From positions 2,790,001-2,854,000 of the forward strand of contig CP136062.1 in NCBI GenBank assembly GCA_032622095.1: a DNA stretch of 64,000 bases, given 5' to 3'. The DNA is from Siphonodentalium dalli (lineage: Eukaryota; Mollusca; Scaphopoda; Gadilida; Siphonodentaliidae). The translations under genes and the position numbers were made by a program. The notes beneath the pieces are model-generated. The model worked only from the letters and a program-made list of their open reading frames with translations, ran no database searches and was not told the origin of the DNA. Numbering within the stretch: position 1 is the stretch's first letter; every line of letters starts with the position of its first letter. Below, piece after piece: positions 1 through 64,000 of this stretch.

Positions 1-2997
1 GAAAATTGGCCGAGATATGGTGACTTTTCTACCCGCGTCACCCAATTCCGAGGTATGGGTGGGGGTCACACCAGAACGTTCCAACTGAACACAGAAATGT
101 CAAGAAACCATAATATCGACATACCAATCAATTCCGCGCGATTTCATTATTATACTTCCATGTTTTACATGGAAGTATATTGTTTTTGTGATTTTTATTT
201 TTCTCTATTATTATTATTATTATTATTCTTCTTAGCAATTTTATAATGAGCATAGCTCAGTCAATACAAGAGTTAGAAAGCTAAAACTTTGAATGTATAT
301 ATATGTATACAAACTCTAGTGCTTAGGCCTATTGAGAATCATGTCCTCACTTGATTTGCAGAGTTATCTCCCTCTATGTGAAAAATTGGTGTTTTCAGAA
401 CTCCGAAAATATAAGGAGTACAGCACTGAAATTTGGTCGATAGATACATCTTGATATCGACTGAATCGTGAGCACATCAAAAACTTTGTCCGTCTTTCCT
501 CTCCAGAGTTATCTCCCATATATATGTCAACCTCGAAATGTTCTGATCGCCTGTTCTCACATAGCAAGAAAGATAGCTGGATTTAGTTTCTATGCTAGTG
601 CTGGCCGTTGTCAATATACTTCACAAAAATAATTTGGACAGGGTCGGACTTACATTTTTTGGTTAGGGTGGGGGCGAAATTTTCGCAATTTTATTTTTGC
701 GATGATTTCAACCATTTTTACTACCATGTATCTTTAGGACGTACTAATGATCCTCCTGAAAGAATTTTGTAAATCGGTTGAGAAATGTCCAAGTTACAGA
801 CCATCGAATATTGTATTCATACATTGGCTGAGGAGAAAGTGGTTGTGACCACAACTCCTCATAGACGACGCACATGAGCAGGATTTGGTTTATGTGAGCG
901 TGTTATTCATAGAGAGAAGACGAACTGGTGCAATTTTTACCAAGATCCAAAAATATTTGTCCCTATTAGGGAGGGGGGCAAAAATTGTCATTTTTTTATC
1001 GTCTCAGATTCGAACCAAAATTGTTGTGAAGTATCTATAGGACGTTCTGAGAGTACTCAAGAAAGAATTTTGTAAATCGGTTGAAAAATGTAGAAATTTT
1101 GGCCCATTAATTCTTATCAAGTTTACAGAAGATGCACTATGGATTTAAATTCCTACAACCAATCGTCACTTTTTTGGTGTCATTCGATGGGGAATTTCTA
1201 GTACTTCTAAACGATTACCTACTTGCCGTATTATGTCGATGGAAGCCAGAGATAATCGAAATGTATATACTGAACAGCATACATATAGGCCTACATAGTA
1301 GAATATCGCCACAATATCTTACTAAAACCCTACTATATAATAAAGGGGCATCAATTGCGAACACAATCACGCAAAAATTAGCTCGATATCTCGAAAATTG
1401 GCCGAGATATGGTGACTTTTCTACCCGCGTCACCCAATTCCGAGGTATGGGTGGGGGTCACACCAGAACGTTCCAACTGAACACAGAAATGTCAAGAAAC
1501 CATAATATCGACATACCAATCAATTCCGCGCGATTTCATTATTATACTTCCATGTTTTACATGGAAGTATATTGTTTTTGTGATTTTTATTTTTCTCTAT
1601 TATTATTATTATTATTATTCTTCTTAGCAATTTTATAATGAGCATAGCTCAGTCAATACAAGAGTTAGAAAGCTAAAACTTTGAATGTATATATATGTAT
1701 ACAAACTCTAGTGCTTAGGCCTATTGAGAATCATGTCCTCACTTGATTTGCAGAGTTATCTCCCTCTATGTGAAAAATTGGTGTTTTCAGAACTCCGAAA
1801 ATATAAGGAGTACAGCACTGAAATTTGGTCGATAGATACATCTTGATATCGACTGAATCGTGAGCACATCAAAAACTTTGTCCGTCTTTCCTCTCCAGAG
1901 TTATCTCCCATATATATGTCAACCTCGAAATGTTCTGATCGCCTGTTCTCACATAGCAAGAAAGATAGCTGGATTTAGTTTCTATGCTAGTGCTGGCCGT
2001 TGTCAATATACTTCACAAAAATAATTTGGACAGGGTCGGACTTACATTTTTTGGTTAGGGTGGGGGCGAAATTTTCGCAATTTTATTTTTGCGATGATTT
2101 CAACCATTTTTACTACCATGTATCTTTAGGACGTACTAATGATCCTCCTGAAAGAATTTTGTAAATCGGTTGAGAAATGTCCAAGTTACAGACCATCGAA
2201 TATTGTATTCATACATTGGCTGAGGAGAAAGTGGTTGTGACCACAACTCCTCATAGACGACGCACATGAGCAGGATTTGGTTTATGTGAGCGTGTTATTC
2301 ATAGAGAGAAGACGAACTGGTGCAATTTTTACCAAGATCCAAAAATATTTGTCCCTATTAGGGAGGGGGGCAAAAATTGTCATTTTTTTATCGTCTCAGA
2401 TTCGAACCAAAATTGTTGTGAAGTATCTATAGGACGTTCTGAGAGTACTCAAGAAAGAATTTTGTAAATCGGTTGAAAAATGTAGAAATTTTGGCCCATT
2501 AATTCTTATCAAGTTTACAGAAGATGCACTATGGATTTAAATTCCTACAACCAATCGTCACTTTTTTGGTGTCATTCGATGGGGAATTTCTAGTACTTCT
2601 AAACGATTACCTACTTGCCGTATTATGTCGATGGAAGCCAGAGATAATCGAAATGTATATACTGAACAGCATACATATAGGCCTACATAGTAGAATATCG
2701 CCACAATATCTTACTAAAACCCTACTATATAATAAAGGGGCATCAATTGCGAACACAATCACGCAAAAATTAGCTCGATATCTCGAAAATTGGCCGAGAT
2801 ATGGTGACTTTTCTACCCGCGTCACCCAATTCCGAGGTATGGGTGGGGGTCACACCAGAACGTTCCAACTGAACACAGAAATGTCAAGAAACCATAATAT
2901 CGACATACCAATCAATTCCGCGCGATTTCATTATTATACTTCCATGTTTTACATGGAAGTATATTGTTTTTGTGATTTTTATTTTTCTCTATTATTA
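1..2997. repeat. 1392-bp tandem array, left block (about 2.15 units)
   Basis: Sequence recurs with a period of exactly 1392 bp: the 27-nt palindrome is at 152-178, 1544-1570 and 2936-2962, and every landmark I compared matches between copies. Each unit holds the palindrome, a T-rich segment with CTCT(ATT)7, and about 1.2 kb made of diverged monomers of roughly 300-340 bp. For example, the stretch around 701-790 and the stretch around 1005-1090 are ancient copies of each other, both containing GAAAGAATTTTGTAAATCGG. The block stops inside the ATT run at 2997, where H1732 begins. A 168-195-residue open frame recurs in each unit, but comparison with the H1383 homologue shows no sign of protein constraint, so I do not call it a gene. 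Confidence 0.95.
152..178. repeat. H1392 unit palindrome (hairpin)
   Basis: ATACTTCCATGT and ACATGGAAGTAT form perfect 12-bp arms around a TTT loop. It recurs at 1544-1570, 2936-2962, 21539-21565 and 22931-22957. The same position in other families carries different but still complementary arms, which suggests the structure itself matters, perhaps as the 5' terminus used in rolling-circle transposition. Confidence 0.9.
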
Positions 2998-5900
2998 TTA
3001 TACTTCCATGGTGTAACCAAGGAAGTATATTGTTTTTCTACTGCGGCCGTTTTCTGTTTAATTGGAAATACTCAGAAACTAATGGGAGGAGGACCGCGAA
3101 ATCTCTAGCGAATGTAGGCATCTAAGGTCTACTAAAAATAATGCTATCCGGATGTTGGTCCAATATATTTTGACAGAGTTATGGCCCTTTTTCGATTATT
3201 TTTCATTATTATTATTATTATTATACTGGACACTTTTGCAACCCTTATTACTCGAAAAGTACCAGGAGTAGCACACTAAAACTTGGTACGTATCTTGGGA
3301 TCAAAGAGTTGTATGCCATCGTCGCATAACGAATATTGTCCGCGTTTTCCCCGAGGAGTTATCTCCCTTTATTTGAAAAAATGTCATTTTATTATCTCGG
3401 AAATTATAAGAAGCAGAGCATCGAAAATTAGACCGTATGCACATCTCGATATGCACTACTGCCCACGGGCATAAAAACTTGGGTCCGCCCTTTCCCTGAA
3501 GAGTTACCGCCCATAGTTGGCAAACCTCTATTTTATTGTACTCTGTTGTCCTCCCGTATCATTCCAGATAACTGTATTTGGTTTTTGTAGTCGTGTTGAC
3601 CGTTGTCAGCTTAGTCCGAGGAAGAAAATTTGACAGGGTTGGACATATATTTTTACACTGGGGTGGGGGCAATATTTTCGCAATTTTTTTTTATTATTGA
3701 CATTCATCTATTTAAGTATGTAGATTCCCTGAACGAAAACAAACCCATACCGGAAAGGATTTTTGTAATCCGAGAAGAAATGCAAGAGTTACGGGCCCTC
3801 AAAGTTTGCAATTTGGTCCCATGTGCTTGTGACCCTATCTCCTCCGAAGATGTCGAACTTTGGATGTCGTCTGATATCCCAGTGCGTGCGGTCTGAAGAG
3901 AGCACGCGATGGGCCAAATTTTGCCAGTGTCGGTTCAGTGTTGTGGGTCAGGGGAGGGGTGGTCCGGGGTACCAATTTTGTATTCTTCTCCGAATCGGAT
4001 GAAACTTGGAATATAACATCCATACCGCCAACCGATCTAGAAACTGAAAGAATTTCGAAAATCCATTGAAAAATGTCAGAGTTGTGGGCCTTCAAACAAT
4101 GCAAATTTGGCCCCATATGCTTGTGATCACATCTCCTCCGAAGATGTCAAACTTTGGATGTCAACTGATACGCCAATGCGTGCGGTCTGAAGAGAGCACG
4201 CGATGAGCCAAATTTTGCCAGTGTCGGTTCAGTGTTGTGGGTCAGGGGAGGGGTGGTCCGGGGTACCAAAATTTATTTCGTCTCCGAATCATATGAAACT
4301 TGATATATAACATATACCATACACGTTGATCATAAAACTGAAAACAGATTGTAAATCCGTTAAAAAATGGCGGAGATTTGGGCCCTCAAACTTTGAATGT
4401 GGGCCCGTATTCTTTCCAATAAACAAAATGTTATTCGTCTCTGAATCAGACAAAATTTATAACAAATAATCAATGTAAGTAGCTGATCACAATACTCAAA
4501 ACAATTTTTAAATCCATTGGAAAATAACGGAGTTACGGGCTCTCAAAATTCGCATTTTGGGCCGGGTTTGACTATTTCCCAATCCCGTCACCCAATTTCG
4601 AGGCAGGGGTGGGGTCACTCCCAAACACTTGAGATCAACCCACACATGTTAAGGGAAAGATATAATCATCCTAATTCATATTTTCCGTCCCTTAACTGCG
4701 ATTTATTGAGCTCATGATTTGCCCTATTATTATACTTCCATGGTGTAACCAAGGAAGTATATTGTTTTTCTACTGCGGCCGTTTTCTGTTTAATTGGAAA
4801 TACTCAGAAACTAATGGGAGGAGGACCGCGAAATCTCTAGCGAATGTAGGCATCTAAGGTCTACTAAAAATAATGCTATCCGGATGTTGGTCCAATATAT
4901 TTTGACAGAGTTATGGCCCTTTTTCGATTATTTTTCATTATTATTATTATTATTATACTGGACACTTTTGCAACCCTTATTACTCGAAAAGTACCAGGAG
5001 TAGCACACTAAAACTTGGTACGTATCTTGGGATCAAAGAGTTGTATGCCATCGTCGCATAACGAATATTGTCCGCGTTTTCCCCGAGGAGTTATCTCCCT
5101 TTATTTGAAAAAATGTCATTTTATTATCTCGGAAATTATAAGAAGCAGAGCATCGAAAATTAGACCGTATGCACATCTCGATATGCACTACTGCCCACGG
5201 GCATAAAAACTTGGGTCCGCCCTTTCCCTGAAGAGTTACCGCCCATAGTTGGCAAACCTCTATTTTATTGTACTCTGTTGTCCTCCCGTATCATTCCAGA
5301 TAACTGTATTTGGTTTTTGTAGTCGTGTTGACCGTTGTCAGCTTAGTCCGAGGAAGAAAATTTGACAGGGTTGGACATATATTTTTACACTGGGGTGGGG
5401 GCAATATTTTCGCAATTTTTTTTTATTATTGACATTCATCTATTTAAGTATGTAGATTCCCTGAACGAAAACAAACCCATACCGGAAAGGATTTTTGTAA
5501 TCCGAGAAGAAATGCAAGAGTTACGGGCCCTCAAAGTTTGCAATTTGGTCCCATGTGCTTGTGACCCTATCTCCTCCGAAGATGTCGAACTTTGGATGTC
5601 GTCTGATATCCCAGTGCGTGCGGTCTGAAGAGAGCACGCGATGGGCCAAATTTTGCCAGTGTCGGTTCAGTGTTGTGGGTCAGGGGAGGGGTGGTCCGGG
5701 GTACCAATTTTGTATTCTTCTCCGAATCGGATGAAACTTGGAATATAACATCCATACCGCCAACCGATCTAGAAACTGAAAGAATTTCGAAAATCCATTG
5801 AAAAATGTCAGAGTTGTGGGCCTTCAAACAATGCAAATTTGGCCCCATATGCTTGTGATCACATCTCCTCCGAAGATGTCAAACTTTGGATGTCAACTGA

Positions 5901-8404
5901 TACGCCAATGCGTGCGGTCTGAAGAGAGCACGCGATGAGCCAAATTTTGCCAGTGTCGGTTCAGTGTTGTGGGTCAGGGGAGGGGTGGTCCGGGGTACCA
6001 AAATTTATTTCGTCTCCGAATCATATGAAACTTGATATATAACATATACCATACACGTTGATCATAAAACTGAAAACAGATTGTAAATCCGTTAAAAAAT
6101 GGCGGAGATTTGGGCCCTCAAACTTTGAATGTGGGCCCGTATTCTTTCCAATAAACAAAATGTTATTCGTCTCTGAATCAGACAAAATTTATAACAAATA
6201 ATCAATGTAAGTAGCTGATCACAATACTCAAAACAATTTTTAAATCCATTGGAAAATAACGGAGTTACGGGCTCTCAAAATTCGCATTTTGGGCCGGGTT
6301 TGACTATTTCCCAATCCCGTCACCCAATTTCGAGGCAGGGGTGGGGTCACTCCCAAACACTTGAGATCAACCCACACATGTTAAGGGAAAGATATAATCA
6401 TCCTAATTCATATTTTCCGTCCCTTAACTGCGATTTATTGAGCTCATGATTTGCCCTATTATTATACTTCCATGGTGTAACCAAGGAAGTATATTGTTTT
6501 TCTACTGCGGCCGTTTTCTGTTTAATTGGAAATACTCAGAAACTAATGGGAGGAGGACCGCGAAATCTCTAGCGAATGTAGGCATCTAAGGTCTACTAAA
6601 AATAATGCTATCCGGATGTTGGTCCAATATATTTTGACAGAGTTATGGCCCTTTTTCGATTATTTTTCATTATTATTATTATTATTATACTGGACACTTT
6701 TGCAACCCTTATTACTCGAAAAGTACCAGGAGTAGCACACTAAAACTTGGTACGTATCTTGGGATCAAAGAGTTGTATGCCATCGTCGCATAACGAATAT
6801 TGTCCGCGTTTTCCCCGAGGAGTTATCTCCCTTTATTTGAAAAAATGTCATTTTATTATCTCGGAAATTATAAGAAGCAGAGCATCGAAAATTAGACCGT
6901 ATGCACATCTCGATATGCACTACTGCCCACGGGCATAAAAACTTGGGTCCGCCCTTTCCCTGAAGAGTTACCGCCCATAGTTGGCAAACCTCTATTTTAT
7001 TGTACTCTGTTGTCCTCCCGTATCATTCCAGATAACTGTATTTGGTTTTTGTAGTCGTGTTGACCGTTGTCAGCTTAGTCCGAGGAAGAAAATTTGACAG
7101 GGTTGGACATATATTTTTACACTGGGGTGGGGGCAATATTTTCGCAATTTTTTTTTATTATTGACATTCATCTATTTAAGTATGTAGATTCCCTGAACGA
7201 AAACAAACCCATACCGGAAAGGATTTTTGTAATCCGAGAAGAAATGCAAGAGTTACGGGCCCTCAAAGTTTGCAATTTGGTCCCATGTGCTTGTGACCCT
7301 ATCTCCTCCGAAGATGTCGAACTTTGGATGTCGTCTGATATCCCAGTGCGTGCGGTCTGAAGAGAGCACGCGATGGGCCAAATTTTGCCAGTGTCGGTTC
7401 AGTGTTGTGGGTCAGGGGAGGGGTGGTCCGGGGTACCAATTTTGTATTCTTCTCCGAATCGGATGAAACTTGGAATATAACATCCATACCGCCAACCGAT
7501 CTAGAAACTGAAAGAATTTCGAAAATCCATTGAAAAATGTCAGAGTTGTGGGCCTTCAAACAATGCAAATTTGGCCCCATATGCTTGTGATCACATCTCC
7601 TCCGAAGATGTCAAACTTTGGATGTCAACTGATACGCCAATGCGTGCGGTCTGAAGAGAGCACGCGATGAGCCAAATTTTGCCAGTGTCGGTTCAGTGTT
7701 GTGGGTCAGGGGAGGGGTGGTCCGGGGTACCAAAATTTATTTCGTCTCCGAATCATATGAAACTTGATATATAACATATACCATACACGTTGATCATAAA
7801 ACTGAAAACAGATTGTAAATCCGTTAAAAAATGGCGGAGATTTGGGCCCTCAAACTTTGAATGTGGGCCCGTATTCTTTCCAATAAACAAAATGTTATTC
7901 GTCTCTGAATCAGACAAAATTTATAACAAATAATCAATGTAAGTAGCTGATCACAATACTCAAAACAATTTTTAAATCCATTGGAAAATAACGGAGTTAC
8001 GGGCTCTCAAAATTCGCATTTTGGGCCGGGTTTGACTATTTCCCAATCCCGTCACCCAATTTCGAGGCAGGGGTGGGGTCACTCCCAAACACTTGAGATC
8101 AACCCACACATGTTAAGGGAAAGATATAATCATCCTAATTCATATTTTCCGTCCCTTAACTGCGATTTATTGAGCTCATGATTTGCCCTATTATTATACT
8201 TCCATGGTGTAACCAAGGAAGTATATTGTTTTTCTACTGCGGCCGTTTTCTGTTTAATTGGAAATACTCAGAAACTAATGGGAGGAGGACCGCGAAATCT
8301 CTAGCGAATGTAGGCATCTAAGGTCTACTAAAAATAATGCTATCCGGATGTTGGTCCAATATATTTTGACAGAGTTATGGCCCTTTTTCGATTATTTTTC
8401 ATTA
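2998..8404. repeat. 1732-bp tandem array, left block (about 3.1 units)
   Basis: The palindrome recurs at 3000-3028, 4732-4760, 6464-6492 and 8196-8224, a period of exactly 1732 bp, and the copies look identical wherever compared. Each unit contains its own internal direct duplication of about 300 bp: in the first unit, segments near 3807-4100 and 4101-4400 share the phrases CTCCGAAGATGTC and AGTGTCGGTTCAGTG. This is therefore a higher-order repeat. The unit also has a (ATT)6 stretch just after TTTTTC (3207-3234 region), which is the insertion site used by H1249. Short open frames of 63-93 codons recur but resemble no family I recognise. Confidence 0.95.
3000..3028. repeat. H1732 5' palindrome
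   Basis: ATACTTCC-A-TGGT and ACCA-A-GGAAGTAT pair with one A/A mismatch around a 3-nt loop. It stands at the 5' boundary of the element and again at the start of each 1732-bp unit (4732, 6464, 8196 and 16742). Confidence 0.85.
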
Positions 8405-11400
8405 TTATACTTACATATTTTAATATGGAAGTATATTGTTATTCAATTTTTTATTTTTCACTATTATTATTATTATTTATTATTCTTAATATATTTTGAA
8501 ACCCTTATATCTCAGAAAGTTTAAAAGTTAAAGCATTGAAATTTGGTAGGTATATGCACCATGCCAAGATGCATGGTAATGGAGCATTTAGGTTTGTGCC
8601 CTAACTTGCTTACCAGAGTTATGGTCCTTAAACCAAAATTTTGGAAAAAGTTTGTGCGCAGATTTTCTCCTGTAAGAAGTCAAGCAGCTGAATTCGGTTC
8701 TCGTAATGGTGTTAACTAAGGAAAGGGCACGAATCGGGGAAATTTTCACCAAGGTCCGAAAACAATTTGTTGACCCGGGGAGGGGTGCAAAATTTGTCAA
8801 TTTTTTTCTTGTCACCGATTCCAACCATTTTTACTGTCGGGTATCTATACGATGTACTGATGCTACTCGTGAAAGAATTTTGTAAATCGGGTGAGAAATG
8901 ACCAAGTTATAACACATCGAAAAATGTACTAATAAAGTCCATGTGTAGAAAGTGCTTGTGTCCCGATCTTCTCCTAGACGAAGCGCAACAGCTGGATTTG
9001 CTCTATGTGAGCGTCTTAAACATAGACAGAAGACCAAACCAGGACATTTTTACAAAGGCCCGCTCAATTTTTCCTGGGCTAAGGGAGGGGCAAAATATGT
9101 CAATTTTTTTTTTGTCGCCGATTTTAACCAAAATGGTTGTGAAGTATCTGTAGGATGTACTAAGTATTATCGTGCGTGAATTTTGTGAATCGGTTGACAA
9201 ATGTAGAAATGGTGGCCCTTTCCTTTTTTCAAGTTTACAGGGAAAGCACTATGAATTTATATTTCTTCAACCAATCGTGACGTGTTTGGTATCATTCGAT
9301 GGGGAATTTTTAGCTCTTTTAAACGATTATTCATTTGCTGCATTATGTCGAATGAGTCCGGAGATATTCAAAAAAGTATGAACCAGAAACATACATATTG
9401 GCCTACATAGTAAAATATCGGCGCAATACCTCACCAAAACCCTAGTAAATATTATAGGGGCATAAAATACGAACACAATGGCGCAAATATTAGCTCGATA
9501 TCTCGAAAATTGGCCGATATATGGCGACTTTTCTACCCGCGTCATCAAATTTCGAGGCATGGGTGGGGGTCACACCAGAACTTTCCAACTGAACACAGAA
9601 ATGTCAATAAACCATACTATCGACATTCCAATCAATTCCGAGCGATTCCCTTATTATACTTACATATTTTAATATGGAAGTATATTGTTATTCAATTTTT
9701 TATTTTTCACTATTATTATTATTATTTATTATTCTTAATATATTTTGAAACCCTTATATCTCAGAAAGTTTAAAAGTTAAAGCATTGAAATTTGGTAGGT
9801 ATATGCACCATGCCAAGATGCATGGTAATGGAGCATTTAGGTTTGTGCCCTAACTTGCTTACCAGAGTTATGGTCCTTAAACCAAAATTTTGGAAAAAGT
9901 TTGTGCGCAGATTTTCTCCTGTAAGAAGTCAAGCAGCTGAATTCGGTTCTCGTAATGGTGTTAACTAAGGAAAGGGCACGAATCGGGGAAATTTTCACCA
10001 AGGTCCGAAAACAATTTGTTGACCCGGGGAGGGGTGCAAAATTTGTCAATTTTTTTCTTGTCACCGATTCCAACCATTTTTACTGTCGGGTATCTATACG
10101 ATGTACTGATGCTACTCGTGAAAGAATTTTGTAAATCGGGTGAGAAATGACCAAGTTATAACACATCGAAAAATGTACTAATAAAGTCCATGTGTAGAAA
10201 GTGCTTGTGTCCCGATCTTCTCCTAGACGAAGCGCAACAGCTGGATTTGCTCTATGTGAGCGTCTTAAACATAGACAGAAGACCAAACCAGGACATTTTT
10301 ACAAAGGCCCGCTCAATTTTTCCTGGGCTAAGGGAGGGGCAAAATATGTCAATTTTTTTTTTGTCGCCGATTTTAACCAAAATGGTTGTGAAGTATCTGT
10401 AGGATGTACTAAGTATTATCGTGCGTGAATTTTGTGAATCGGTTGACAAATGTAGAAATGGTGGCCCTTTCCTTTTTTCAAGTTTACAGGGAAAGCACTA
10501 TGAATTTATATTTCTTCAACCAATCGTGACGTGTTTGGTATCATTCGATGGGGAATTTTTAGCTCTTTTAAACGATTATTCATTTGCTGCATTATGTCGA
10601 ATGAGTCCGGAGATATTCAAAAAAGTATGAACCAGAAACATACATATTGGCCTACATAGTAAAATATCGGCGCAATACCTCACCAAAACCCTAGTAAATA
10701 TTATAGGGGCATAAAATACGAACACAATGGCGCAAATATTAGCTCGATATCTCGAAAATTGGCCGATATATGGCGACTTTTCTACCCGCGTCATCAAATT
10801 TCGAGGCATGGGTGGGGGTCACACCAGAACTTTCCAACTGAACACAGAAATGTCAATAAACCATACTATCGACATTCCAATCAATTCCGAGCGATTCCCT
10901 TATTATACTTACATATTTTAATATGGAAGTATATTGTTATTCAATTTTTTATTTTTCACTATTATTATTATTATTTATTATTCTTAATATATTTTGAAAC
11001 CCTTATATCTCAGAAAGTTTAAAAGTTAAAGCATTGAAATTTGGTAGGTATATGCACCATGCCAAGATGCATGGTAATGGAGCATTTAGGTTTGTGCCCT
11101 AACTTGCTTACCAGAGTTATGGTCCTTAAACCAAAATTTTGGAAAAAGTTTGTGCGCAGATTTTCTCCTGTAAGAAGTCAAGCAGCTGAATTCGGTTCTC
11201 GTAATGGTGTTAACTAAGGAAAGGGCACGAATCGGGGAAATTTTCACCAAGGTCCGAAAACAATTTGTTGACCCGGGGAGGGGTGCAAAATTTGTCAATT
11301 TTTTTCTTGTCACCGATTCCAACCATTTTTACTGTCGGGTATCTATACGATGTACTGATGCTACTCGTGAAAGAATTTTGTAAATCGGGTGAGAAATGAC

Positions 11401-11552
11401 CAAGTTATAACACATCGAAAAATGTACTAATAAAGTCCATGTGTAGAAAGTGCTTGTGTCCCGATCTTCTCCTAGACGAAGCGCAACAGCTGGATTTGCT
11501 CTATGTGAGCGTCTTAAACATAGACAGAAGACCAAACCAGGACATTTTTACA
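8405..11552. repeat. 1249-bp tandem core array (about 2.5 units)
   Basis: The period is exactly 1249 bp (palindromes at 8407-8434, 9656-9683 and 10905-10932; arms ATACTTACATATT and AATATGGAAGTAT with one mismatch). Units look identical in the stretches compared. They are homologous to the H1392 and H1383 units: the last 120 bp of all three share CACACCAGAAC, TTCCAACTGAACACAG and CAATCAATTCCG. The third copy stops at 11552 in mid-unit, right after GACATTTTTACA, where the unique 3' segment begins. Confidence 0.95.
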
Positions 11553-12850
11553 ATGTCAAAAATTACACAAATGACCACTGGCGATATATTTCAACATCCA
11601 TTCATGTTGGCGCACTGTATTAAGTGTTGTATTGGCTAATGGGTAATCACTCAAAACAAAGTCGGCTGTCTGTCTTGCCGACCGGCCGTGATTATGCGGT
11701 TTTATCACGATGCGGCTTAAAAATGACATATTTTGAGTCCAAAAACGGTCGAAATTCATTAGTTTTAGAATAGTAGTTCGTTTTGTTTTCACTTTTTTTA
11801 AAACCCCCATTTTTTACAAAAATAATTCTCGACTTTGACATTTGAGAATTAACAGAACTGTGGTGTCCGTCGTATATTGTTATAACACTTCTCAGCATGG
11901 ACCACGTTTTCATAAAGCACAATCCGTCTTATGCGCGGACTTTCGCTTGCAGTTCTCAATTCAATTGAAACTATTTTCTATCCGTTCACGCGCCCGTAAA
12001 CCATTTTAATATATGATATATTCAAATTGAATGAATGGGAGTCAGCGTATCCCGTCCGACGCCCCAACCTTGCCACCCCTTAGTCGCTAATTTTGGTATC
12101 ATAATTTCGGAACGTGACACTTTGCGGTTTGGTATTGGTTTACCATCTGACATAGTGCATAATTTTGTTGAATTCAGATCTGACCATTTAAAAATTGTCT
12201 CTTTATCATCTGTATGTGTCACGAGTGAAAATATATGACTTTATTGTCCGACTGTTAAGACCGCCGATTGCATATTTCGCATTAATTGGACGAGACGTAA
12301 TGTAAAGTCTTATAACTTACGAATAGGCGACAACGTCGACGTCGTACATTCGTTCGCTACTCGGAAAATATACAATAAATGCCTTAAAGCGCCGACTAAT
12401 TCACCACCTGCGGGTATACAAGAATATGAATCACACCAAAATTAAGCGAATTGCATATGGAATGTGTAGGTATAAGCTGCCATGTATATATCATTTCCAG
12501 AATGCTACCATTTCATGACAATCTATTTGTTAAAATACGGCACCTTAAACTGTTGGGAACATCGCGATATAGGCAAGCGAGCAAAGAGAGTTTAATGTCA
12601 TCATACCATACGCTATTTCGCTGTTCCGAAATGGGTGGTCGATCAATGTAGCATAATTACATTGAACGACATATATAAGTATGTTTTTGTGTGAATAACG
12701 ATTGTTAACTTGGTATTATGAACTTATGCATGACTGTGAAGACTTGCAATAACATATTAAATGGTAAAATACGCGCATTCATATCCGTATATTCTCAAAA
12801 ATATCCGTCTATTTTACAAGCTCGACATGCTATATTTGTTTATGGTATAC
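11553..12850. other. H1249 unique 3' segment, first part; no gene seen
   Basis: This is single-copy sequence in the window with only short open frames (66-84 codons) on both strands and no recognisable product. A stretch at 11735-11800 is similar to 17789-17852 in the H1732 3' segment (both start GAGTCCAAAA and end GTTTTCACTTTTT). A small hairpin GTCGGC...GCCGAC lies near 11661-11682. Nothing else here can be supported. Confidence 0.6.
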
Positions 12851-13352
12851 CAGGGGGGTGAAAACAAAAATTCCGGCACGTATGCCGGGGTGGGTGGGTG
12901 ATCAAATCCACCAACAAGCAATTTTTTCCGCAACTAAAAAAAATAATTTCCTTCTTGTTTTTTAGTGTTTTGGCAACTGTAAACTGTAAACTGACTGCAG
13001 GCAGTTATCGTGTTGTATTTTGTTGCAAATTTTTAAATCCAAGATGGCCGCTGGCAGCCATGTTTTTTTGGCCGAATGACCTCAAAAGGACTCATTCCTA
13101 TTTACATGTCCATGTCAACATCCATGATAAATAGTATGCACAGAAATTCATATACAGCTGTTTACAGTGAATTCCCCCCCCCGCAAATCTCTGTTTTAGT
13201 GTTAACAGGGAGGGTGGGTGTCAAAAAATGGTCGGAAAAAACTGCCGAAAACGGAAAAACATTTGGCGAAGGGGGTGGGTGGGTACAAAAAATGATCGAA
13301 AGGGAAAAAATGCCATACGTGCCTGAAATTTTTGTCCGACCCCCCCCCCCTG
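12851..13352. mobile_element. hAT-like MITE, about 502 bp
   Basis: The ends are inverted repeats. The left end CAGGGGGGTG is followed by ACAAAAATTCCGGCACGTATG. The right end reads on the other strand CAGGGGGG, then ACAAAAATTTCAGGCACGTATG. The terminal arms match over about 40 bp with a length difference in the G run. The element is flanked by a 7-bp direct repeat GGTATAC (12844-12850 and 13353-13359). CAGGGG termini suggest the hAT superfamily, but hAT duplications are normally 8 bp, so another superfamily is possible. Open frames of 112-156 codons overlap it but lack any transposase motif I can see, so I take it as a non-autonomous deletion derivative. Confidence 0.7.
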
Positions 13353-14510
13353 GGTATACTACCGTTTCAACACATCGGCTATTTATCATTTTGCTGGTGA
13401 GAAGGCGTATGTTCAGTTTGGTGCTATTTATGTACACAGAAAAGGCACCATTACTCGGGAAAGCAACATACCGAAATGCATATAGATGTACGCGAATCAT
13501 GTTACGTTCTCACACAATGCAGCTTTCCCAAATCCGCGCTCTTTAAAATAGAATTGGCTGCATGACTGGCCTACTTCTGATGGCCAAAAATGTATACAAA
13601 ATTCGAACAAGCTGTGGAAAAGTTCGCGATCTTGGACAGTCAGTACAATCGGTTGGACAGTCAGTACAATCGGTATAAACGTTTGTAATGACATAACGTG
13701 TCTTGACAGCATTACCTGTTATGCTATTTTGATATGTTTCTAAATTATATTTAATGCTTGATTCCTGATACACATATATAGTGACATTTCAGTGATCTTT
13801 CTAGAGCGTTCCCGAGCATGATAGAACTTCAAATAAAACATATTCGCCTTTGTCCCATTCTGGTGATTTGGGCTCGTTTTTAGCATGTTACTAATTTTAT
13901 AATAAGGCGTAATCAAGACATGTGTTATCAGTTGTGTGAGTGATTGCCATTCGCGCATAATTATTTCATAAATAAATATATCCGCTGCACGTAGATATAA
14001 CCGTCACTTATAGTACTGGCCGTTGAAATCACTGACCCGACAAACTGATAAACCAAGACTTAACACTTGGCAAATTACAGATCGGCATTGATTTAAAACT
14101 TCGCACTTCATTGTGGACAGACTATAACTATCCGTATATTTCACGAGAATATACCATCCCATAGCAGTTATAATTTTTAACATCTCAAGTCTTTAATTTG
14201 GAATATATGCACAAGAGATAGACACATGTGTGCATGTGGAACCCGTGCATGTTCTTTATTCCCGTTGCCAATTAAATATATATATTGTACACATGTGGGT
14301 ATGTATACTAATAAAACCGAACTGTGTCTGTGTTCATTTGTTTGTCGGTCTGACCTGCTATTGGTGCCCAACCGGTTGGATCATGACAAACTAAAATTGG
14401 AACACACGGTGAATTGTCACGTGGAGTGTCATGGGATAGGTGCATCTGACGTCGTGTGATTTAATTTGGAATTCATGAATAATTTAATAACATGCTTACA
14501 TCTATATCTA
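13353..14510. other. H1249 unique 3' segment, middle part; no gene seen
   Basis: AT-rich single-copy sequence. The only structure I can support is a 21-bp perfect direct duplication at 13632-13673 (TTGGACAGTCAGTACAATCGG twice). Short open frames on both strands show no recognisable domain. Confidence 0.5.
13632..13673. repeat. 21-bp direct duplication
   Basis: Two perfect adjacent copies (13632-13652 and 13653-13673). The most likely origin is replication slippage. Confidence 0.9.
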
Positions 14511-14680
14511 CAGTATGCCCTAAGTAATCGACTCCTTAAACATAGCAGAATTATGGGTAATATTTCAGGATTTAGTGGGAAATATAGCCTGTTGACATTC
14601 ATCCGAAAGCTCTCCTGAATCCCGAAAAGTTACCCATAATTCTGCTCTGTTTAAGGGGTCGATTACATAAGGCATTACTG
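14511..14680. mobile_element. Tc1/mariner-like MITE, 170 bp
   Basis: The element begins CAGTATGCCCTAAGTAATCG and its other end on the reverse strand begins CAGTAATGCCTTATGTAATCG. The two arms continue to match for about 60 bp, including AGCAGAATTATGGGTAA, so most of the element is a fold-back. It is flanked by TA on both sides (14509-14510 and 14681-14682), the target duplication of the Tc1/mariner superfamily, and CAGT termini fit that group. There is no coding sequence. The arms have diverged by several bases, so it is not a very recent insertion. Confidence 0.8.
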
Positions 14681-15187
14681 TATATTTGCGAATTTCTGTC
14701 TGTCGGCCTGTGTCTGTCTTCTACAAAAATTACAGGAGACCATCTAGATGATACCAATGAGTCTACTAAGGGTAACTTTTTACGAGAAATATAATTTCAA
14801 AAGTAGCCTCATTCTTAATCTTTTATTTTTGCGAACTGATGTGTTTATGATGTTCATGTATCATAATATAAGGTCTGAAGTATGCATGGTTGTAACTAAA
14901 TAAATACTTCAATAGTTGTGGAACGGATTAATCGAGATAAACAAAATTACGATCGAAAAGGTGAGCCACTACTTATATTCCATGAATTTTTAAAGTTATA
15001 GATATAGTTATAATTATTGTGATTATGGTTACGGCTAGAGCATGGTTATGCTTATAGAAACATTTAGTATTGGGACATGGTACGGGTTGCCGATAGGTAT
15101 GGTTATGTTAAGATTTGGGTTATGGGAAAGGTAATGATTGAGAGGGGATTTGGATTGGAACATATATGATAATTATATGGAAGTATC
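14681..15187. other. H1249 unique 3' segment, last part; no gene seen
   Basis: AT-rich sequence. Between about 15000 and 15140 the words GGTTATG, GGTTACGG and GGGTTATGGG recur loosely, but without a regular period. No gene or RNA is supported. Confidence 0.5.
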
Positions 15188-15218
15188 AAACTTCCAATAG
15201 GAAGTTTAAAAATTCTAG
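15188..15218 (+). other. 3' terminus of H1249 (hairpin plus CTAG)
   Basis: AAACTTCC, loop AATA, GGAAGTTT, then AAAAATT and CTAG. This matches the Helitron 3' signal, in which a short hairpin about ten bases before CTRR ends the transposed strand. Confidence 0.85.
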
Positions 15219-17645
15219 TTATTATTATTATTATACTGGACACTTTTGCAACCCTTATTACTCGAAAAGTACCAGGAGTAGCACACTAAAACTTGGTACG
15301 TATCTTGGGATCAAAGAGTTGTATGCCATCGTCGCATAACGAATATTGTCCGCGTTTTCCCCGAGGAGTTATCTCCCTTTATTTGAAAAAATGTCATTTT
15401 ATTATCTCGGAAATTATAAGAAGCAGAGCATCGAAAATTAGACCGTATGCACATCTCGATATGCACTACTGCCCACGGGCATAAAAACTTGGGTCCGCCC
15501 TTTCCCTGAAGAGTTACCGCCCATAGTTGGCAAACCTCTATTTTATTGTACTCTGTTGTCCTCCCGTATCATTCCAGATAACTGTATTTGGTTTTTGTAG
15601 TCGTGTTGACCGTTGTCAGCTTAGTCCGAGGAAGAAAATTTGACAGGGTTGGACATATATTTTTACACTGGGGTGGGGGCAATATTTTCGCAATTTTTTT
15701 TTATTATTGACATTCATCTATTTAAGTATGTAGATTCCCTGAACGAAAACAAACCCATACCGGAAAGGATTTTTGTAATCCGAGAAGAAATGCAAGAGTT
15801 ACGGGCCCTCAAAGTTTGCAATTTGGTCCCATGTGCTTGTGACCCTATCTCCTCCGAAGATGTCGAACTTTGGATGTCGTCTGATATCCCAGTGCGTGCG
15901 GTCTGAAGAGAGCACGCGATGGGCCAAATTTTGCCAGTGTCGGTTCAGTGTTGTGGGTCAGGGGAGGGGTGGTCCGGGGTACCAATTTTGTATTCTTCTC
16001 CGAATCGGATGAAACTTGGAATATAACATCCATACCGCCAACCGATCTAGAAACTGAAAGAATTTCGAAAATCCATTGAAAAATGTCAGAGTTGTGGGCC
16101 TTCAAACAATGCAAATTTGGCCCCATATGCTTGTGATCACATCTCCTCCGAAGATGTCAAACTTTGGATGTCAACTGATACGCCAATGCGTGCGGTCTGA
16201 AGAGAGCACGCGATGAGCCAAATTTTGCCAGTGTCGGTTCAGTGTTGTGGGTCAGGGGAGGGGTGGTCCGGGGTACCAAAATTTATTTCGTCTCCGAATC
16301 ATATGAAACTTGATATATAACATATACCATACACGTTGATCATAAAACTGAAAACAGATTGTAAATCCGTTAAAAAATGGCGGAGATTTGGGCCCTCAAA
16401 CTTTGAATGTGGGCCCGTATTCTTTCCAATAAACAAAATGTTATTCGTCTCTGAATCAGACAAAATTTATAACAAATAATCAATGTAAGTAGCTGATCAC
16501 AATACTCAAAACAATTTTTAAATCCATTGGAAAATAACGGAGTTACGGGCTCTCAAAATTCGCATTTTGGGCCGGGTTTGACTATTTCCCAATCCCGTCA
16601 CCCAATTTCGAGGCAGGGGTGGGGTCACTCCCAAACACTTGAGATCAACCCACACATGTTAAGGGAAAGATATAATCATCCTAATTCATATTTTCCGTCC
16701 CTTAACTGCGATTTATTGAGCTCATGATTTGCCCTATTATTATACTTCCATGGTGTAACCAAGGAAGTATATTGTTTTTCTACTGCGGCCGTTTTCTGTT
16801 TAATTGGAAATACTCAGAAACTAATGGGAGGAGGACCGCGAAATCTCTAGCGAATGTAGGCATCTAAGGTCTACTAAAAATAATGCTATCCGGATGTTGG
16901 TCCAATATATTTTGACAGAGTTATGGCCCTTTTTCGATTATTTTTCATTATTATTATTATTATTATACTGGACACTTTTGCAACCCTTATTACTCGAAAA
17001 GTACCAGGAGTAGCACACTAAAACTTGGTACGTATCTTGGGATCAAAGAGTTGTATGCCATCGTCGCATAACGAATATTGTCCGCGTTTTCCCCGAGGAG
17101 TTATCTCCCTTTATTTGAAAAAATGTCATTTTATTATCTCGGAAATTATAAGAAGCAGAGCATCGAAAATTAGACCGTATGCACATCTCGATATGCACTA
17201 CTGCCCACGGGCATAAAAACTTGGGTCCGCCCTTTCCCTGAAGAGTTACCGCCCATAGTTGGCAAACCTCTATTTTATTGTACTCTGTTGTCCTCCCGTA
17301 TCATTCCAGATAACTGTATTTGGTTTTTGTAGTCGTGTTGACCGTTGTCAGCTTAGTCCGAGGAAGAAAATTTGACAGGGTTGGACATATATTTTTACAC
17401 TGGGGTGGGGGCAATATTTTCGCAATTTTTTTTTATTATTGACATTCATCTATTTAAGTATGTAGATTCCCTGAACGAAAACAAACCCATACCGGAAAGG
17501 ATTTTTGTAATCCGAGAAGAAATGCAAGAGTTACGGGCCCTCAAAGTTTGCAAGTGTCGGTCCAGTATTGTGGGTCAGGGGAGGGGTGGTCTGCGGTACC
17601 AATTTTTAATTCTTCTCAGAATCATATGAAATTTGGGATATAACA
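15219..17645. repeat. 1732-bp tandem array, right block, with diverged edge
   Basis: The interrupted H1732 unit resumes at 15219 with the rest of its ATT run and continues with the 1732-bp period (palindrome at 16742-16770). Near-identity ends after TCAAAGTTTGCA at 17552. From 17553 to about 17645 the sequence is still recognisable as H1732 unit material, but it is diverged and about 120 bp has been skipped, since AGTGTCGGTCCAGTATTG follows directly. An older, unhomogenised copy at the edge of an array is the usual pattern. Confidence 0.9.
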
Positions 17646-18541
17646 GAAATATGTCTATCCAAATGTAATTCGCGAACTATGAACGAATGTTGTACAAGCT
17701 CACATCTCATTCCCCAAACTATCCGTTACTTATTCATAAAAGTCATATTATGCTACACGCGAAACGGAGATAACTTTTGGGGAATCCAGAGTCCAAAACG
17801 GATCGAAATCGCCCTGTTCCAGAAAAGTCGTTCATTTTGTTTTCACTTTTTGAAAAAGGCTCCAATATTTCAACCAAAACTTTTGGACTTAGAACATTAT
17901 TTTTTTCTCAGTCAAGTGAAAAGAGCTCTTCAAAATAATTCCGCTTATATATATAATATATATTATCTATATATACGCCAAAAATTTGTCACTCCCCTCT
18001 CTCCTTCCTCCGGCTACCCCATCCTCCGTGGGATGGAACCTACCTCCGATTCGAATACACCCGTCATGCCGCGGGCCAGTCTCATTCCTCTACCAGAGAA
18101 CTGATAGAACGCCCGTCGAATACCAACAATCATTTCCAGAGTGCTATATTGGTATGAGTTCATATCGGAGCCGTTATAAAGCAAATAACTTGGATTTTAA
18201 TATAAACCCACCTATTCGTAAATTGTGTAGCCCATGGTGTGTGGTAAATTATCATTTTATCGTGTATAGTGTGTCATGAGCTATCTGCGTGCGTGCATTT
18301 CACTTTTGTATTTTCTTTCGCATCTTCAACGCACTGCATATCATATACAACCAAACAAAATACAAACATTACATTAATTTGATCACACAAGACTTCGTTA
18401 TATGGTGTATATTTCTACTAACGTAATGACGACGTATAGCCAATTATTCCATTTGCGATAACAACGATAAACACATAGAAACATGCAAACATCATCAGTT
18501 TCGTAAGATCAATTTGTATATTGTTTATATTCTAGTTATTT
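17646..18541. other. H1732 unique 3' segment, first part; no gene seen
   Basis: Single-copy AT-rich sequence with open frames of up to 141 codons that have no recognisable motif. 17789-17852 resembles 11735-11800. A TA-rich stretch lies at 17945-17975. No gene can be supported. Confidence 0.55.
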
Positions 18542-18650
18542 ATCGAATATAAAAAGCATCTTTACATTATCTTTAGTTTGGTATTATTCGTATTTGATGA
18601 TTAAAATACACCAAAACATGTTAAAAATAAAAAATAAAAAAAGATAATTT

Positions 18651-18726
18651 GACGGGATTCGAACTCACGTCGCAATAAAACACAAACTGAATGTTTGACG
18701 CTCTCTCCACTCGGCTACGCAGCGCG
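18651..18726 (-). pseudogene. tRNA-like (SINE-type) fragment, copy 1
   Basis: On the minus strand an A-box-like TAGCCGAGTGG (18707-18717) and a B-box-like GTTCGAATCCC (18654-18664) occur at tRNA-like spacing, followed by a T7 run that could end Pol III transcription. The acceptor arms do not pair, the base before the putative anticodon is not T, and the variable region is long and unstructured. It is therefore a tRNA-derived relic or SINE head, not a working tRNA. Confidence 0.65.
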
Positions 18727-18921
18727 CTGTTAATTTATAATAAAATATATTAGTATTAAATATGTAGGCATATAACTGTGTATATTTAAACTTTATATCC
18801 AAACTGATTGAAATCGAATATAAAAAGCATCTTTACATTATCTTTAGTTTGGTATTATTCGTATTTGATGATTAAAATACACCAAAACATGTTAAAAATA
18901 AAAAATAAAAAAAGATAATTT

Positions 18922-18998
18922 GACGGGATTCGAACTCACGTCGCAATAAAAACACAAACTGAAGGTTTGACGCTCTGACCACTCAGCTACGCACTGCG
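18922..18998 (-). pseudogene. tRNA-like (SINE-type) fragment, copy 2
   Basis: Duplicate of the preceding tRNA-like block. Its D-arm (GTAGCTGAGTGGTCAGAGCG) is closer to a canonical tRNA than that of copy 1, so this copy is nearer the ancestral state. The B box is again GTTCGAATCCC. The acceptor stem still does not pair, so I do not call a functional tRNA. Confidence 0.65.
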
Positions 18999-19086
18999 CT
19001 ATTAATTTATAAGAAAATATATTAGTATTAAATATATAGGCATATAACTGTGTATATTTAAACTTTATATCCAAACTGATTGAAAT

Positions 19087-19885
19087 GCGTGACTATATAT
19101 ATATATACCCCTTTCCGCTATACGGGGAACAGGAAAATGCACCTATTCTTCCCACCAAATCCAAAAGGGCTAATTAAAGAGCAAGGTAATGCCGTAGCAG
19201 GTACATTTGGATATTCTATTCACGCCCCCCCCCCAAATCTTGACCGCTATACTTCAAATTCAAACATCGAGAATTTTTTTGTTGACGAGTACATCTGATA
19301 GCTAGTGTTCACGCGCATCTAGAGCGCAATTTTCTAATTTTCAGATGGAACGGAACGGTTTACTCGTGACAACGCTATATATCATAAATATGTATACTTC
19401 TGTAGTCTATCACTAGCCGATTTTTAGCCCCAAATCCAAACGGGCCGATGTAGGAGCGAGTTTAATGCGGTGGTACATAAGCCGGTATACTGTAGGTATG
19501 ACTCTAAAATTTGACCTCTCTAATATAAACGCAACCTGCTCAAGGGAGTGTTTGTGTCGGGTGGGTTCAGATTTGGAAAATTCCACCGAAGATCAAATGG
19601 GCAAAATTACTCCGAAAATCATATATTGAGATAAAAACTTTTCGATGAGTGGATGTGATAAGTAGTATATAAACGCAAGATTAGTACACTTTTTAATGAT
19701 TTATATTGAACGGTTTAACCCTGGTAGCGTATAACGTTGTGACGGGTGATATATATTACTCAAATTCAAACCCTCTCTTCATGACGCAAATTCAAACGGA
19801 CTTAGCAAGAAGCAAGGCAAATGCATGAATATGCTCACCGATATACTATATAGGTATGTCCGCTCTACTGTAAAAGTAACCTATT
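19087..19885. repeat. Degenerate 300-400-bp modules in the H1732 3' segment
   Basis: Phrases such as CAAATCCAAAAGGGCTAATT (about 19157), CAAATCCAAACGGGCCGATG (about 19430), CAACCTGC, GGTGGGTTCAGATTT and GGATGTGATAAGTAGTAT recur in the same order roughly every 300 bp, strongly diverged. The same phrases in the same order occur at 32750-34080 in H1392, so the two 3' segments share ancestry. No coding potential is evident. Confidence 0.65.
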
Positions 19886-20145
19886 GTCACGATTTGACCT
19901 GTCCAAAACACTCCCCGGACAAAAGTTTTCCTAGGTATAAAATTTCGTCGAAATCCGATCGTTTTACTCGATTTTACCTTGAACTTACCATTTCGAATGT
20001 CAATGTCAGGTCGGGGTCACGACTTGACCCGCCCAAAAGACTCCCCGGACAAAAGTACCCCTAGGTATCAAATTTCGTGGAAATCCGCATGTTTTACCCG
20101 ATTTGACCTTCGATTGACCATTTTGAAGACCAAGGTCAGGTCGGG
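19886..20145 (-). repeat. 130-bp tandem pair, inverted relative of Helitron B core
   Basis: GTCACGAYTTGACC begins at 19886 and again at 20016, giving two diverged copies of 130 bp. Reverse-complemented, they align with 35185-35345 of Helitron B: AAGGTCAAATCGGGTAAAAC, GGGTACTTTTGT, CTTGACCTTGG and CTTCAAAAT occur there too. I read this as an old Helitron-derived fragment in the opposite orientation. A short GGGAT/GATGG run (about 20146-20164) follows. Confidence 0.65.
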
Positions 20146-20169
20146 ATGGGATGGGATGGGATGGAATAC

Positions 20170-20208
20170 CATGGAAGTATATCTGATTCCATGGAATCTG
20201 ACCTCTAG
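20170..20208 (+). other. 3' terminus of H1732
   Basis: CATGGAAGTAT, then the palindrome GATTCCATGGAATC (20185-20198), TGACCT and CTAG (20205-20208). It is followed immediately by the remainder of the interrupted H1392 ATT run. Confidence 0.8.
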
Positions 20209-25900: not shown

Positions 25901-26744
25901 TGGAACAACGCTCTTTATATGTTTTATTGTTGTTAACGTATCTCCTCCTAAACGGCTTGAGATATCTGGTTGGGACTTTTTTCATTATTTGCGCATGCAC
26001 ATGTGTTACACAACACCGAAAAATAATAGGGGTCGCCCTTCCGGTTTAAAAGTTGACCCTGGGTCGAATAATAAAAGAACTCTCTTTATACGAAATCCAG
26101 AACGGCTTGAGATATTGAGTTGGGACTTTTTGCGTTATGTGCATCCAACTGTGCGATGTATAAAGATATATATAGTTAACGGATTTCTCTTCCGGTTCTG
26201 GAGAACGGGCGTGTGTGTATGTACCTCAAAACTGTTTTGGCGCAGATTATAATGAAATTTTGTGGATATAATCTCTAGTTGCCGATGATCACTATCCCAC
26301 TCGAATTTTTTTAATCGGGCTAAAACTTCTGGAGTTATGGCTGCTTAAATACCTGGTTTTTGGGAAGGTTTCGTGCCACCATAATAACTTGCAAATCGAG
26401 TTACATTTCTCATATCGTCAAAACGGCTCAGCCAATTGATTTGAAATTTTGTACCTGCATAGCCATTGAGCATTCGCAGTTTTTGTGCATCAGACTCTGC
26501 GCTGTATGTTGATATATATAAGGTACTGATTTGAATTCCGGTTTGGGAGAACTGGCGAGTGGGTGCAGAATTTGATGAAATTTGGTGGATAAAATACTGT
26601 GGTTGGTGACTAGTACTATGGTATATAGTATCACAATACTCGCACGTGTTTGCTGACAACTAACTCGTTAATGGACGACACATGTTCCCGTCGTTGGCAA
26701 CATGGAAGTGTCGAAATTGCTGTGCAATTACAGTTTCATTCTAG
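22993..26744 (+). mobile_element. H3120 copy E1 (3752 bp)
   Basis: Both ends are present: the 5' palindrome at 22995-23022, the 3' hairpin at 26715-26729 and CTAG at 26741-26744. The body has five tandem modules of 629-630 bp, with phase points TGACCTTGACC at 23371, 24000, 24629, 25258 and 25888. Each module contains several diverged repeats of the phrase GAAACGGCTTGAGATATCG. Frames of 85-134 codons recur with the module period but contain no recognisable domain. Confidence 0.8.
23371..26517. repeat. 629-bp tandem modules in E1 (five copies)
   Basis: Modules are spaced 629, 629, 629 and 630 bp. Modules 2 and 3 (24000 and 24629) are almost identical, while the outer ones are more diverged. 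The same modules occur in E2 (27120, 27749, 28378 and 29008) and E3. Each begins with TGACCTTGACCTTTGG or a close variant. Confidence 0.9.
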
Positions 26745-32631: not shown

Positions 32632-32632
<1 letters not shown>

Positions 32633-35360: not shown

Positions 35361-35380
35361 TCTATTATATATTTTGAAAG

Positions 35381-35441
<61 letters not shown>

Positions 35442-62700: not shown

Positions 62701-64000
62701 GTGCGAATCCCTTATTATACTTCCATATTTTAATATGGAAGTATATTGTTATTCAATTTATTATTTTTCTCCTCTATTATTATTATTCTAAGCAATTTTT
62801 CAACTCTTATATCTCCGGAAGTACAAGAGATAGGGAGCTGAAATTTCGTATGCATATAGACCTATACTATTTCTAACTAATAAGAGTATATAGGATGTTG
62901 CCCACGATTGGTTTACAGAGTTATCTCCCTTTTTGTGAAAAAATGGGGTTGCTGTATCTCGAAAAGTATGAGCAGCAGAGACTCAAAATTTGGACCATAT
63001 GTAGAACTCAGGATTCCCTATTGAATCCATACATTATAATTTATGTCCGCGCTTTTTCTACAGAGTTGTCGCCCATGATTCGCAAAATTCGATTTATTTC
63101 ATATCATGTAACCGCCTATAACATGCACGGTATCCATATTTGAGAGATTTTATGTAGTTACCCGTTATCAACTTGCTACGAAAACAAGTTTTAAACAGGG
63201 ACGGACTTATATTTTTGGGTTTTGGGTGGGGGCAAAATTTTCGCAATTTTTTTTTCGATGATTTCAACTATTTTTACTGTCGTGTATCTATAGGGTGTAC
63301 TAATGATCCTCCTGAAAGAATTTTGGAAATCGGTTCAGAATTGTCCAAGTTACAGACCATCGCAAATGGTATTCATACCATGAATTGAGGAGAAAGTGCT
63401 TGTGGACAAAACTCCTCCTAGACGACGCACGCGAACTGGATTTGGTCTATGTGAGCGTGTTATCCATAGAAAGAAGACGAAATGGTGCAATTTTGACGAA
63501 GATCCAAAAACATTGGTCCATATTAGGGAGGGGGCAAAAATTGTCATATTTTTTTGGTCTCCGATTTGAACCAAAATTGTTGTGAAGTATCTATAAGATG
63601 TACCGAGTGAAATTATGAGTGAATTTTGTGAATCGGTTGAAAAATGTAGAAATTGTGGCCCCTTCATTTTTTTCAAGTTTACAGAAGATGCACTATGAAT
63701 TCAAATTCCTTCAACCAATCGTCAATTGTTTAGTGTCATTCGGTGGGGAATTTATAATACTTTTAAACGATTACCGACTTGCCTTATTATGTCGATGGAA
63801 GCCAGATATAATCGAAATGTATGTACTGAACAGCATTAATATAGGTCTATATAGTAGAATATCGCCACAATATCTTACTAGAACCCTACTAAATATTAAA
63901 GGGGCATCAAATGCGAACACAATGACGCAAAAATTAGCTCGATATCTCGAAGATTAGCCGAGATATGGCGACTTTTCTACACGCATCACCTAATTCCGAG
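44738..64000. repeat. H1383 units 7-20, type B
   Basis: All 14 units carry CAAATGGTATTCATACCATG at the diagnostic site (first at 45385-45404) and a T9 run. The change creates a 16-bp interrupted palindrome ATGGTATTCATACCAT (45387-45402 in unit 7). The clean block boundary indicates that these units arose by local amplification of one variant unit. Confidence 0.9.

Follow-up and report, generated by a model that had tools for sequence, protein, structure and literature searches.

Nested tandem arrays of non-coding rolling-circle transposons, probably of the Helentron type, in the scaphopod Siphonodentalium dalli

The region analysed, henceforth referred to as the window, is a 64,000-nucleotide stretch of the Siphonodentalium dalli genome (GenBank assembly GCA_032622095.1, contig CP136062.1, positions 2,790,001 to 2,854,000 of the forward strand). 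This 64-kb stretch consists of non-coding rolling-circle transposons of one general type, which are tandemly repeated and nested; most of the insertions lie in a short ATT repeat that the elements themselves bring along. Tandem arrays with periods of 1392, 1732, 1249, 3120 and 1383 bp were detected from the spacing of shared 24-mers over the whole window, and the five families are named by these periods (H1392 for the family, U1392 for its unit, T1392 for its tail). The structure, excisions, insertion sites and identities given below are direct observations. The features, in window coordinates, are as follows.

1 to 2997, plus strand: left part of the H1392 array, with unit starts at 148, 1540 and 2932 and the last unit broken at offset 66.
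2932 to 2997, plus strand: example of a left module, with the subterminal inverted repeat (subTIR) hairpin TATACTTCCATG/CATGGAAGTAT followed by an (ATT)n tract, interrupted here.
2998 to 8404, plus strand: left part of the H1732 array, with 5' motifs at 2996, 4728, 6460 and 8192, the last unit broken at offset 213 and 0 mismatches between units.
8405 to 15218, plus strand: H1249 element of 6814 bp, comprising two full units, 653 bp of a third, a tail and a CTAG end; its excision restores H1732.
11554 to 15218, plus strand: the single tail of H1249, from which two open reading frames (ORFs) were tested and gave no Pfam match.
15219 to 20208, plus strand: right part of H1732, comprising the remainder of the broken unit, a partial last unit (16738-17553, 816 bp), the tail (17554-20208) and a CTAG end.
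20209 to 22992, plus strand: middle part of the H1392 array, exactly 2 x 1392 bp, bounded by two insertions at the same unit offset (66).
22993 to 31841, plus strand: H3120 element of 8849 bp, with three whole head-to-tail copies, 5' motifs at 22991, 26745 and 29865 and CTAG ends at 26744, 29864 and 31841.
31842 to 36475, plus strand: right part of H1392, comprising the remainder of the broken unit, a partial unit to ~32440 (1 mismatch, at 32408), the tail and a CTAG end.
34088 to 36094, plus strand: oligomer of a small element within the H1392 tail, with three head-to-tail copies of 506, 767 and 734 bp, TC...CTAG ends and flanking A and T.
36476 to 64000, plus strand: H1383 array, with a leading partial unit from 0-based offset 39 and then 19 unit starts, continuing past the window end.

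The original prediction placed H1249 inside H1732, H1732 inside H1392, and an H3120 concatemer likewise inside H1392, and proposed deletion of the three intervals in silico as a check. These deletions were run. Removal of 8405-15218 (H1249, 6814 bp), of 2998-20208 (H1732 together with H1249, 17,211 bp) and of 22993-31841 (H3120, 8849 bp) brought back the host period with 0 mismatches, uninterrupted units of the same arrays serving as the empty sites. After excision, 6,012 consecutive unit-to-unit comparisons in H1732 were free of mismatches before the partial last unit departs, as were 4,955 in H1392 after both of its excisions. As a control, the right cut was displaced by 12 offsets (1, 2, 3, 6, 10 and 50 bases either way) and the next 400 bases were scored; in all three excisions, shifted cuts gave 270-308 mismatches in 400 compared to 0 in 400 for the unshifted cut. 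This result confirmed the proposed nesting and its junction positions, with the reservation that each of the three excisions can slide by 0-4 bases while the restored sequence stays unchanged, so that the exact boundary base is undefined. This slide arises from the first bases of the element, which are the same as those of the target. The host is restored without the need for a target duplication, and with this slide A^T and T^T both fit as insertion sites.

Because their units are interrupted, H1392 is older than H1732 and H3120, and H1732 is older than H1249. To this extent the predicted time order held; its remaining step, H1383 before H1392, depends on one junction, at which the H1383 unit resumes at 0-based offset 39 on the 3' side of H1392, the left side lying upstream of the window. 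By the rule of three, the ~6,000 and ~5,000 mismatch-free comparisons place divergence within the H1732 and H1392 arrays below roughly 0.05-0.06%. At so low a divergence, the formation of the arrays and the insertions would be recent, or differences would have been erased by conversion.

The five families had been described as related, but they are so to unequal degrees. Over 877-1400 bp, a stretch that extends up to or close to the distal ends of the units, U1249, U1383 and U1392 show ~79-80% identity. U1732 is 69% alike over ~340 bp, with additional short pieces, and H3120 resembles the other families over roughly its initial 80-110 bp and in its type of 3' end.

The predicted rolling-circle type of element is well supported by ends and architecture. 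The HINE/DINE-1 elements are non-autonomous Helentrons (Thomas et al. 2014, PMC4067079) and include Cg_HINE of the oyster (PMC7492417). The 5' ends of the families in the window read TATTATACTTCCAT, or TATTATACTTACAT in H1249, and pair with the inverted copy that comes next. The resulting subTIR hairpin was found in all five families, a few nucleotides from the 5' terminus and with a palindromic or inverted copy as in HINEs; upon single-stranded DNA folding, none of 200 shuffles folded as well in any family. All 35 copies of the 5' motif are on the plus strand and none on the minus strand (both motif variants tested). The plus strand of the window has 39 occurrences of GGAAGTAT: 35 belong to 5' modules and the other four to the outermost 3' ends, one at each of the four; its 32 reverse-complement copies are confined to 5' modules. 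An (ATT)4-7 tract is present in four of the five families, at unit offset 60-80 in U1383, U1249 and U1392 and at 210-227 in U1732. Additionally, unit-to-unit junctions in the four array families read T followed directly by TATTATAC (unit starts e.g. 1540, 4728, 9652 and 46117), and the five bases before the 5' end in these families are always TATTA, which would fit a founding copy located in an ATT tract.

At the opposite end, the 3' subTIR ATGGAAGT[AG]T was present at 6/6 CTAG ends examined (four element ends and two internal H3120 ends), with its inner edge 28-34 nt and its outer edge 38-44 nt from the 3' end; for H1383 this end lies beyond the window. This position agrees with the ~38-60 nt from the 3' terminus given for mite HINEs in PMC4067079. 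A 3' palindrome as good as the native one was obtained from 3, 5 and 1 of 200 shuffles for H1249, H1732 and H1392, respectively, and the H1732 stem overlaps the subTIR. The ends were also tested against the canonical Helitron (Helitron1), which has a 5'-TC end, a 3' CTRR, an A^T target and no inverted repeats. The families have no 5'-TC and do have inverted subTIRs, and so differ from it, although CTAG fits CTRR and an A^T target is possible. Overall, the five families look like HINEs.

Unlike the large families, the small oligomer at 34088-36094 has TC...CTAG between A and T. Its copies are joined end to end as CTAG followed directly by TCTATTATA, the A and T flanks are as in canonical Helitrons, and the pieces shared between copies are 75-96% identical. 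It may represent a further, older layer of the nest.

In H1249, H1732 and H1392, the repeated unit contains the left module but lacks the 3' end, and one tail in each carries the only terminator. Several 5' ends, one 3' end and truncated units, the hallmarks of truncated tandem Helitron arrays, are thus found in these three families. H3120 falls outside this type, having its own 3' end on each copy, and the end of H1383 is beyond the window. Consecutive comparisons without mismatch number 1,902 in H1249, besides the 6,012 in H1732 and 4,955 in H1392, and the partial final unit extends 653, 816 and 632 bp, respectively, before its first mismatch. The tails are 2.6-4 kb long, each with its sole terminator and each occurring once in the window. 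They are mostly unrelated: T1392 and T1732 are ~70% identical over 314 bp with shorter pieces besides, and T1249 and T1732 are 77% identical over 69 bp. A common origin of the tails was considered and is mostly not supported by the matches listed, which include some of those involving H3120.

The H1732 tail opens with 92 bp that are 88% like the distal part of the unit, and the last H1392 copy shows 1 mismatch and 32 further matching bases before it departs. Both tail starts look like joins to an older copy that still had its 3' end; sequence comparison found no such trace at the H1249 tail. With the unit old and shared and the tails different, the pattern points to tail exchange. The H1732 tail also contains a ~272-bp direct duplication, 96% identical, at 18542-19086. 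By eye, a stretch of this duplication resembles an inverted tRNA-like sequence, for which ARAGORN and Rfam at gathering score returned nothing.

The H3120 concatemer proved to be nested in H1392 as predicted, but its copies are not equal, and a long perfect 3120-bp periodicity is confined to 24435-30707 (6.3 kb), a run with both of its limits within copies. Copy 2 is a mosaic: over its first 843 bp it matches copy 3 exactly, and from 811 to its end it matches copy 1 exactly. Between copies 1 and 3 the likeness is ~87% over 1.26 kb, though the flanking H1392 units are identical. A simple fresh concatemer was therefore rejected. Since the surrounding H1392 units are identical, the outer H3120 copies probably diverged before arrival, and they probably moved as one, past internal 3' ends. 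The insertion may have come before or after the 3120-bp duplication. At both internal 3' ends (26741-26744 and 29861-29864) the subTIR is ATGGAAGTGT, whereas all four outermost ends, including that of H3120 (31838-31841), have ATGGAAGTAT. This change is a possible reason for terminator bypass and is regarded as a lead, not as proof.

The original suggestion that the arrays act as landing pads for related elements can be kept in a narrower form, in which the pad is (ATT)n in the 5' part of the host unit. H1732 and H3120 are both inserted in U1392 at offset 66, and H1249 in U1732 at offset 213, in each case inside the ATT tract; three of the four insertions thus lie in the only (ATT)>=3 tract of the host unit, two of them at the identical base. 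U1392 contains 159 TT steps, of which 7 are in the tract, and U1732 contains 186, of which 6 are. With every TT taken as an equal target, the probability of at least three of four insertions falling in the tract is 1.8e-4, in a test that was framed after the sites had been seen. An ATT pad would fix orientation because ATT has TT on one strand only, and such a strand-oriented pad would fit the all-plus arrangement. It is plausible that landing pads of this kind let loci grow without hitting genes.

Eight variable columns were found among the 18 full H1383 units. Four of the eight split the array into two blocks, the leading partial unit with units 1-5 and units 6-19, and a fifth column splits the same blocks except that unit 1 goes with the second. 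The two blocks suggest two amplification rounds.

No gene was recognised. No stop-to-stop ORF in the window exceeds 202 aa, and those of the longer ORFs that recur are array units. ARAGORN and Rfam at gathering score identified no RNA genes in the window. The ORFs screened with Pfam comprised 9 of the 17 of at least 95 aa together with one from H3120 copy 3, a subset of all frames. The sole match among these 10, to Omptin (E 0.11), was sub-threshold and was discarded as chance. Searches with the exact 5' terminus gave no match in viral contigs (one variant) or in bacterial and archaeal genomes (two-fold degenerate pattern), as expected for a eukaryotic repeat, and a literature text search with the subTIR letters and 'Helitron' found no paper.

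We consider the window to be a nest of non-autonomous, Helentron-like rolling-circle elements of the HINE type, shaped by rolling-circle copying, by lost or bypassed terminators and by insertion into the self-carried ATT tract (probability about 0.8). The element would consist of a left module (5' subTIR hairpin with inverted copy, with an ATT microsatellite in four of five families) and, at the other end, a 3' subTIR, usually a small palindrome, and CTAG. A circular copy without the terminator would be copied round and round, giving identical truncated units. By recombination or template switch, the array would then be joined within its last unit to an older, diverged copy with a 3' end, after which array and tail would move as one element from the first 5' end to that terminator. 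H3120 would be an oligomer of whole copies, probably moved as one past two internal 3' ends with ATGGAAGTGT in place of ATGGAAGTAT. Insertion would take place at a TT (or AT) step, with (ATT)n preferred, and since an ATT tract lies in the 5' part of the units of four families, relatives would insert close to each other's 5' ends, all pointing the same way, and build oriented nests. The circles, the bypass, the joining to old tails and the source of the enzymes are the parts of this scheme that we infer.

Several observations weigh against this reading. Pfam detected no Rep/helicase domain, nor an endonuclease, in the 10 stop-to-stop ORFs tested from the tails and H3120, and for this reason the rolling-circle identity rests on ends and architecture. 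A plain truncated-circle model expects the distal part of the unit in the last copy; here the last copy breaks off within the unit, which calls for an additional joining step. The fourth insertion, H1392 in U1383 at offset 39, is outside the ATT tract, U3120 has no (ATT)>=3 tract, and the tract of U1732 is ~170 bp behind the hairpin and does not adjoin it. The terminal 3' palindrome of H3120 is no better than shuffles (48/200 as good); at its internal end at 29864 only 1/200 shuffles was as good, but via a different fold that includes the subTIR. The subTIR change at the bypassed ends counts as one independent event at most, because the two internal ends are copies of each other. Lastly, the units are near-identical, and copy number in the assembly may be in error.

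Three other explanations were weighed. The arrays could be ordinary satellites homogenised by unequal crossing-over and gene conversion, with transposon ends as passengers and nests from occasional insertions. Unequal exchange is also expected to give two H1383 blocks of near-identical neighbours (8 variable columns in 18 full units), recent homogenisation would explain the identical units of the other arrays no less well than recent copying, and in H3120 both limits of the perfect 3120-bp duplication fall within copies, as would result from an unequal exchange. We nevertheless judge this account improbable: where H1249, H1732 and H3120 meet their hosts, the left border is a transposon 5' terminus and the right border is CTAG, and each array comes out of its host together with its tail in one piece. 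Far less probable is an artefact in which the assembler joined similar arrays from different loci. Units identical over kilobases are indeed difficult for assemblers, but at all three contained junction pairs the host is restored with base precision, the ends match Helentron-type termini, and chance joins would not end at CTAG every time; moreover, the 2.6-4 kb tails, each present once in the window, anchor three elements.

Oligomers could also have been produced not by rolling-circle copying but by single elements inserting again and again at one target beside an earlier one, a route reported for Drosophila transposable element dimers (review PMC12628747). The site preference seen here, the ~87% likeness of the outer H3120 copies and the copy junctions, which read CTAG-TATTA-TACTTCC with ATT-like bases between the ends, would all be in keeping with it. 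Such insertion would not easily account for H1249, H1732 and H1392, in which the inner units are identical and lack a 3' end, and a later duplication would be required for the 6.3 kb of perfect 3120-bp periodicity; repeated insertion is thus an unlikely general source of the oligomers.

A broader and quite tentative idea, one we think more doubtful than probable, is that the ATT microsatellite in the 5' part of the unit is a self-carried, strand-oriented landing pad that attracts relatives close to the 5' end, always head-to-tail. Each nesting would then yield a composite with multiple 5' ends, able to move with the terminator of the inner element. Families with common ends could in this way set each other's arrays in motion and exchange tails, and one base changed in the 3' subTIR would suffice to convert a terminator into a read-through site and lengthen the mobile unit. 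The window provides a legible record of rolling-circle transposons becoming satellite-like arrays, with identical truncated units, single terminators, different tails and exact sites in one 64-kb stretch. It also allows two points to be tested in a single genome: whether insertion is aimed at the very microsatellite that typifies HINEs, and whether read-through and array growth go along with a lost 3' subTIR.

Compared with HINEs as described in PMC4067079 and PMC7492417, the families share a 5' subTIR within a palindrome or before its inverted copy, tandem repeats, a 3' subTIR and no coding capacity found. A microsatellite in the left module, seen in four of the five families, a palindrome near the 3' end, better than nearly all shuffles in three, and a TT or T-rich target, with A^T fitting as well, may be further points of likeness. 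In the oyster account (PMC7492417), HINE monomers are predominantly 140-180 bp and lie between two modules, and the microsatellites mostly have four-base motifs; here the units are 1.2-1.7 kb (3.1 kb in H3120) and include the left module, and the motif is ATT. Like the proto-Helentron of Phytophthora infestans (PMC4067079), the elements taken at slide 0 have the form 5'-TT ... CTAG-3', with A on the left and T on the right; that proto-Helentron is a ~14 kb coding element, whereas the ends here have subTIRs and no protein domain was found. Tandem truncated Helitrons were attributed by Xiong, Dooner and Du (2016) to rolling-circle copying of a terminator-less circle, as summarised in PMC12628747 and PMC8268682. 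Those plant arrays likewise repeat the 5' part and have one terminator; in these summaries they are described as partly decayed, whereas the present arrays have Helentron-type ends, identical units and a last copy cut inside the unit, and several are nested. FoHeli of Fusarium oxysporum also shows self-insertion and several 5' termini with one 3' terminus, and one case of three tandem copies is given for Metarhizium acridum (PMC5148889). The duplicated 5' pieces of FoHeli are typically short (<200 bp), and long, mutually nested arrays such as those found here are absent from that description. The inter-inserted Helitron/satellite loci of Crassostrea gigas similarly have tandemised or truncated parts within other elements (PMC12628747); they are summarised there without the base-exact excision or order of events that are given here. 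Truncated tandem Helitrons, self-insertion and inter-inserted oyster loci are thus already in print, and the window adds an unusually clear case to a known kind. What sets it apart is that the repeat units are large and include the left module, that the order of nesting can be read off, that an ATT site is shared and that the tails differ.

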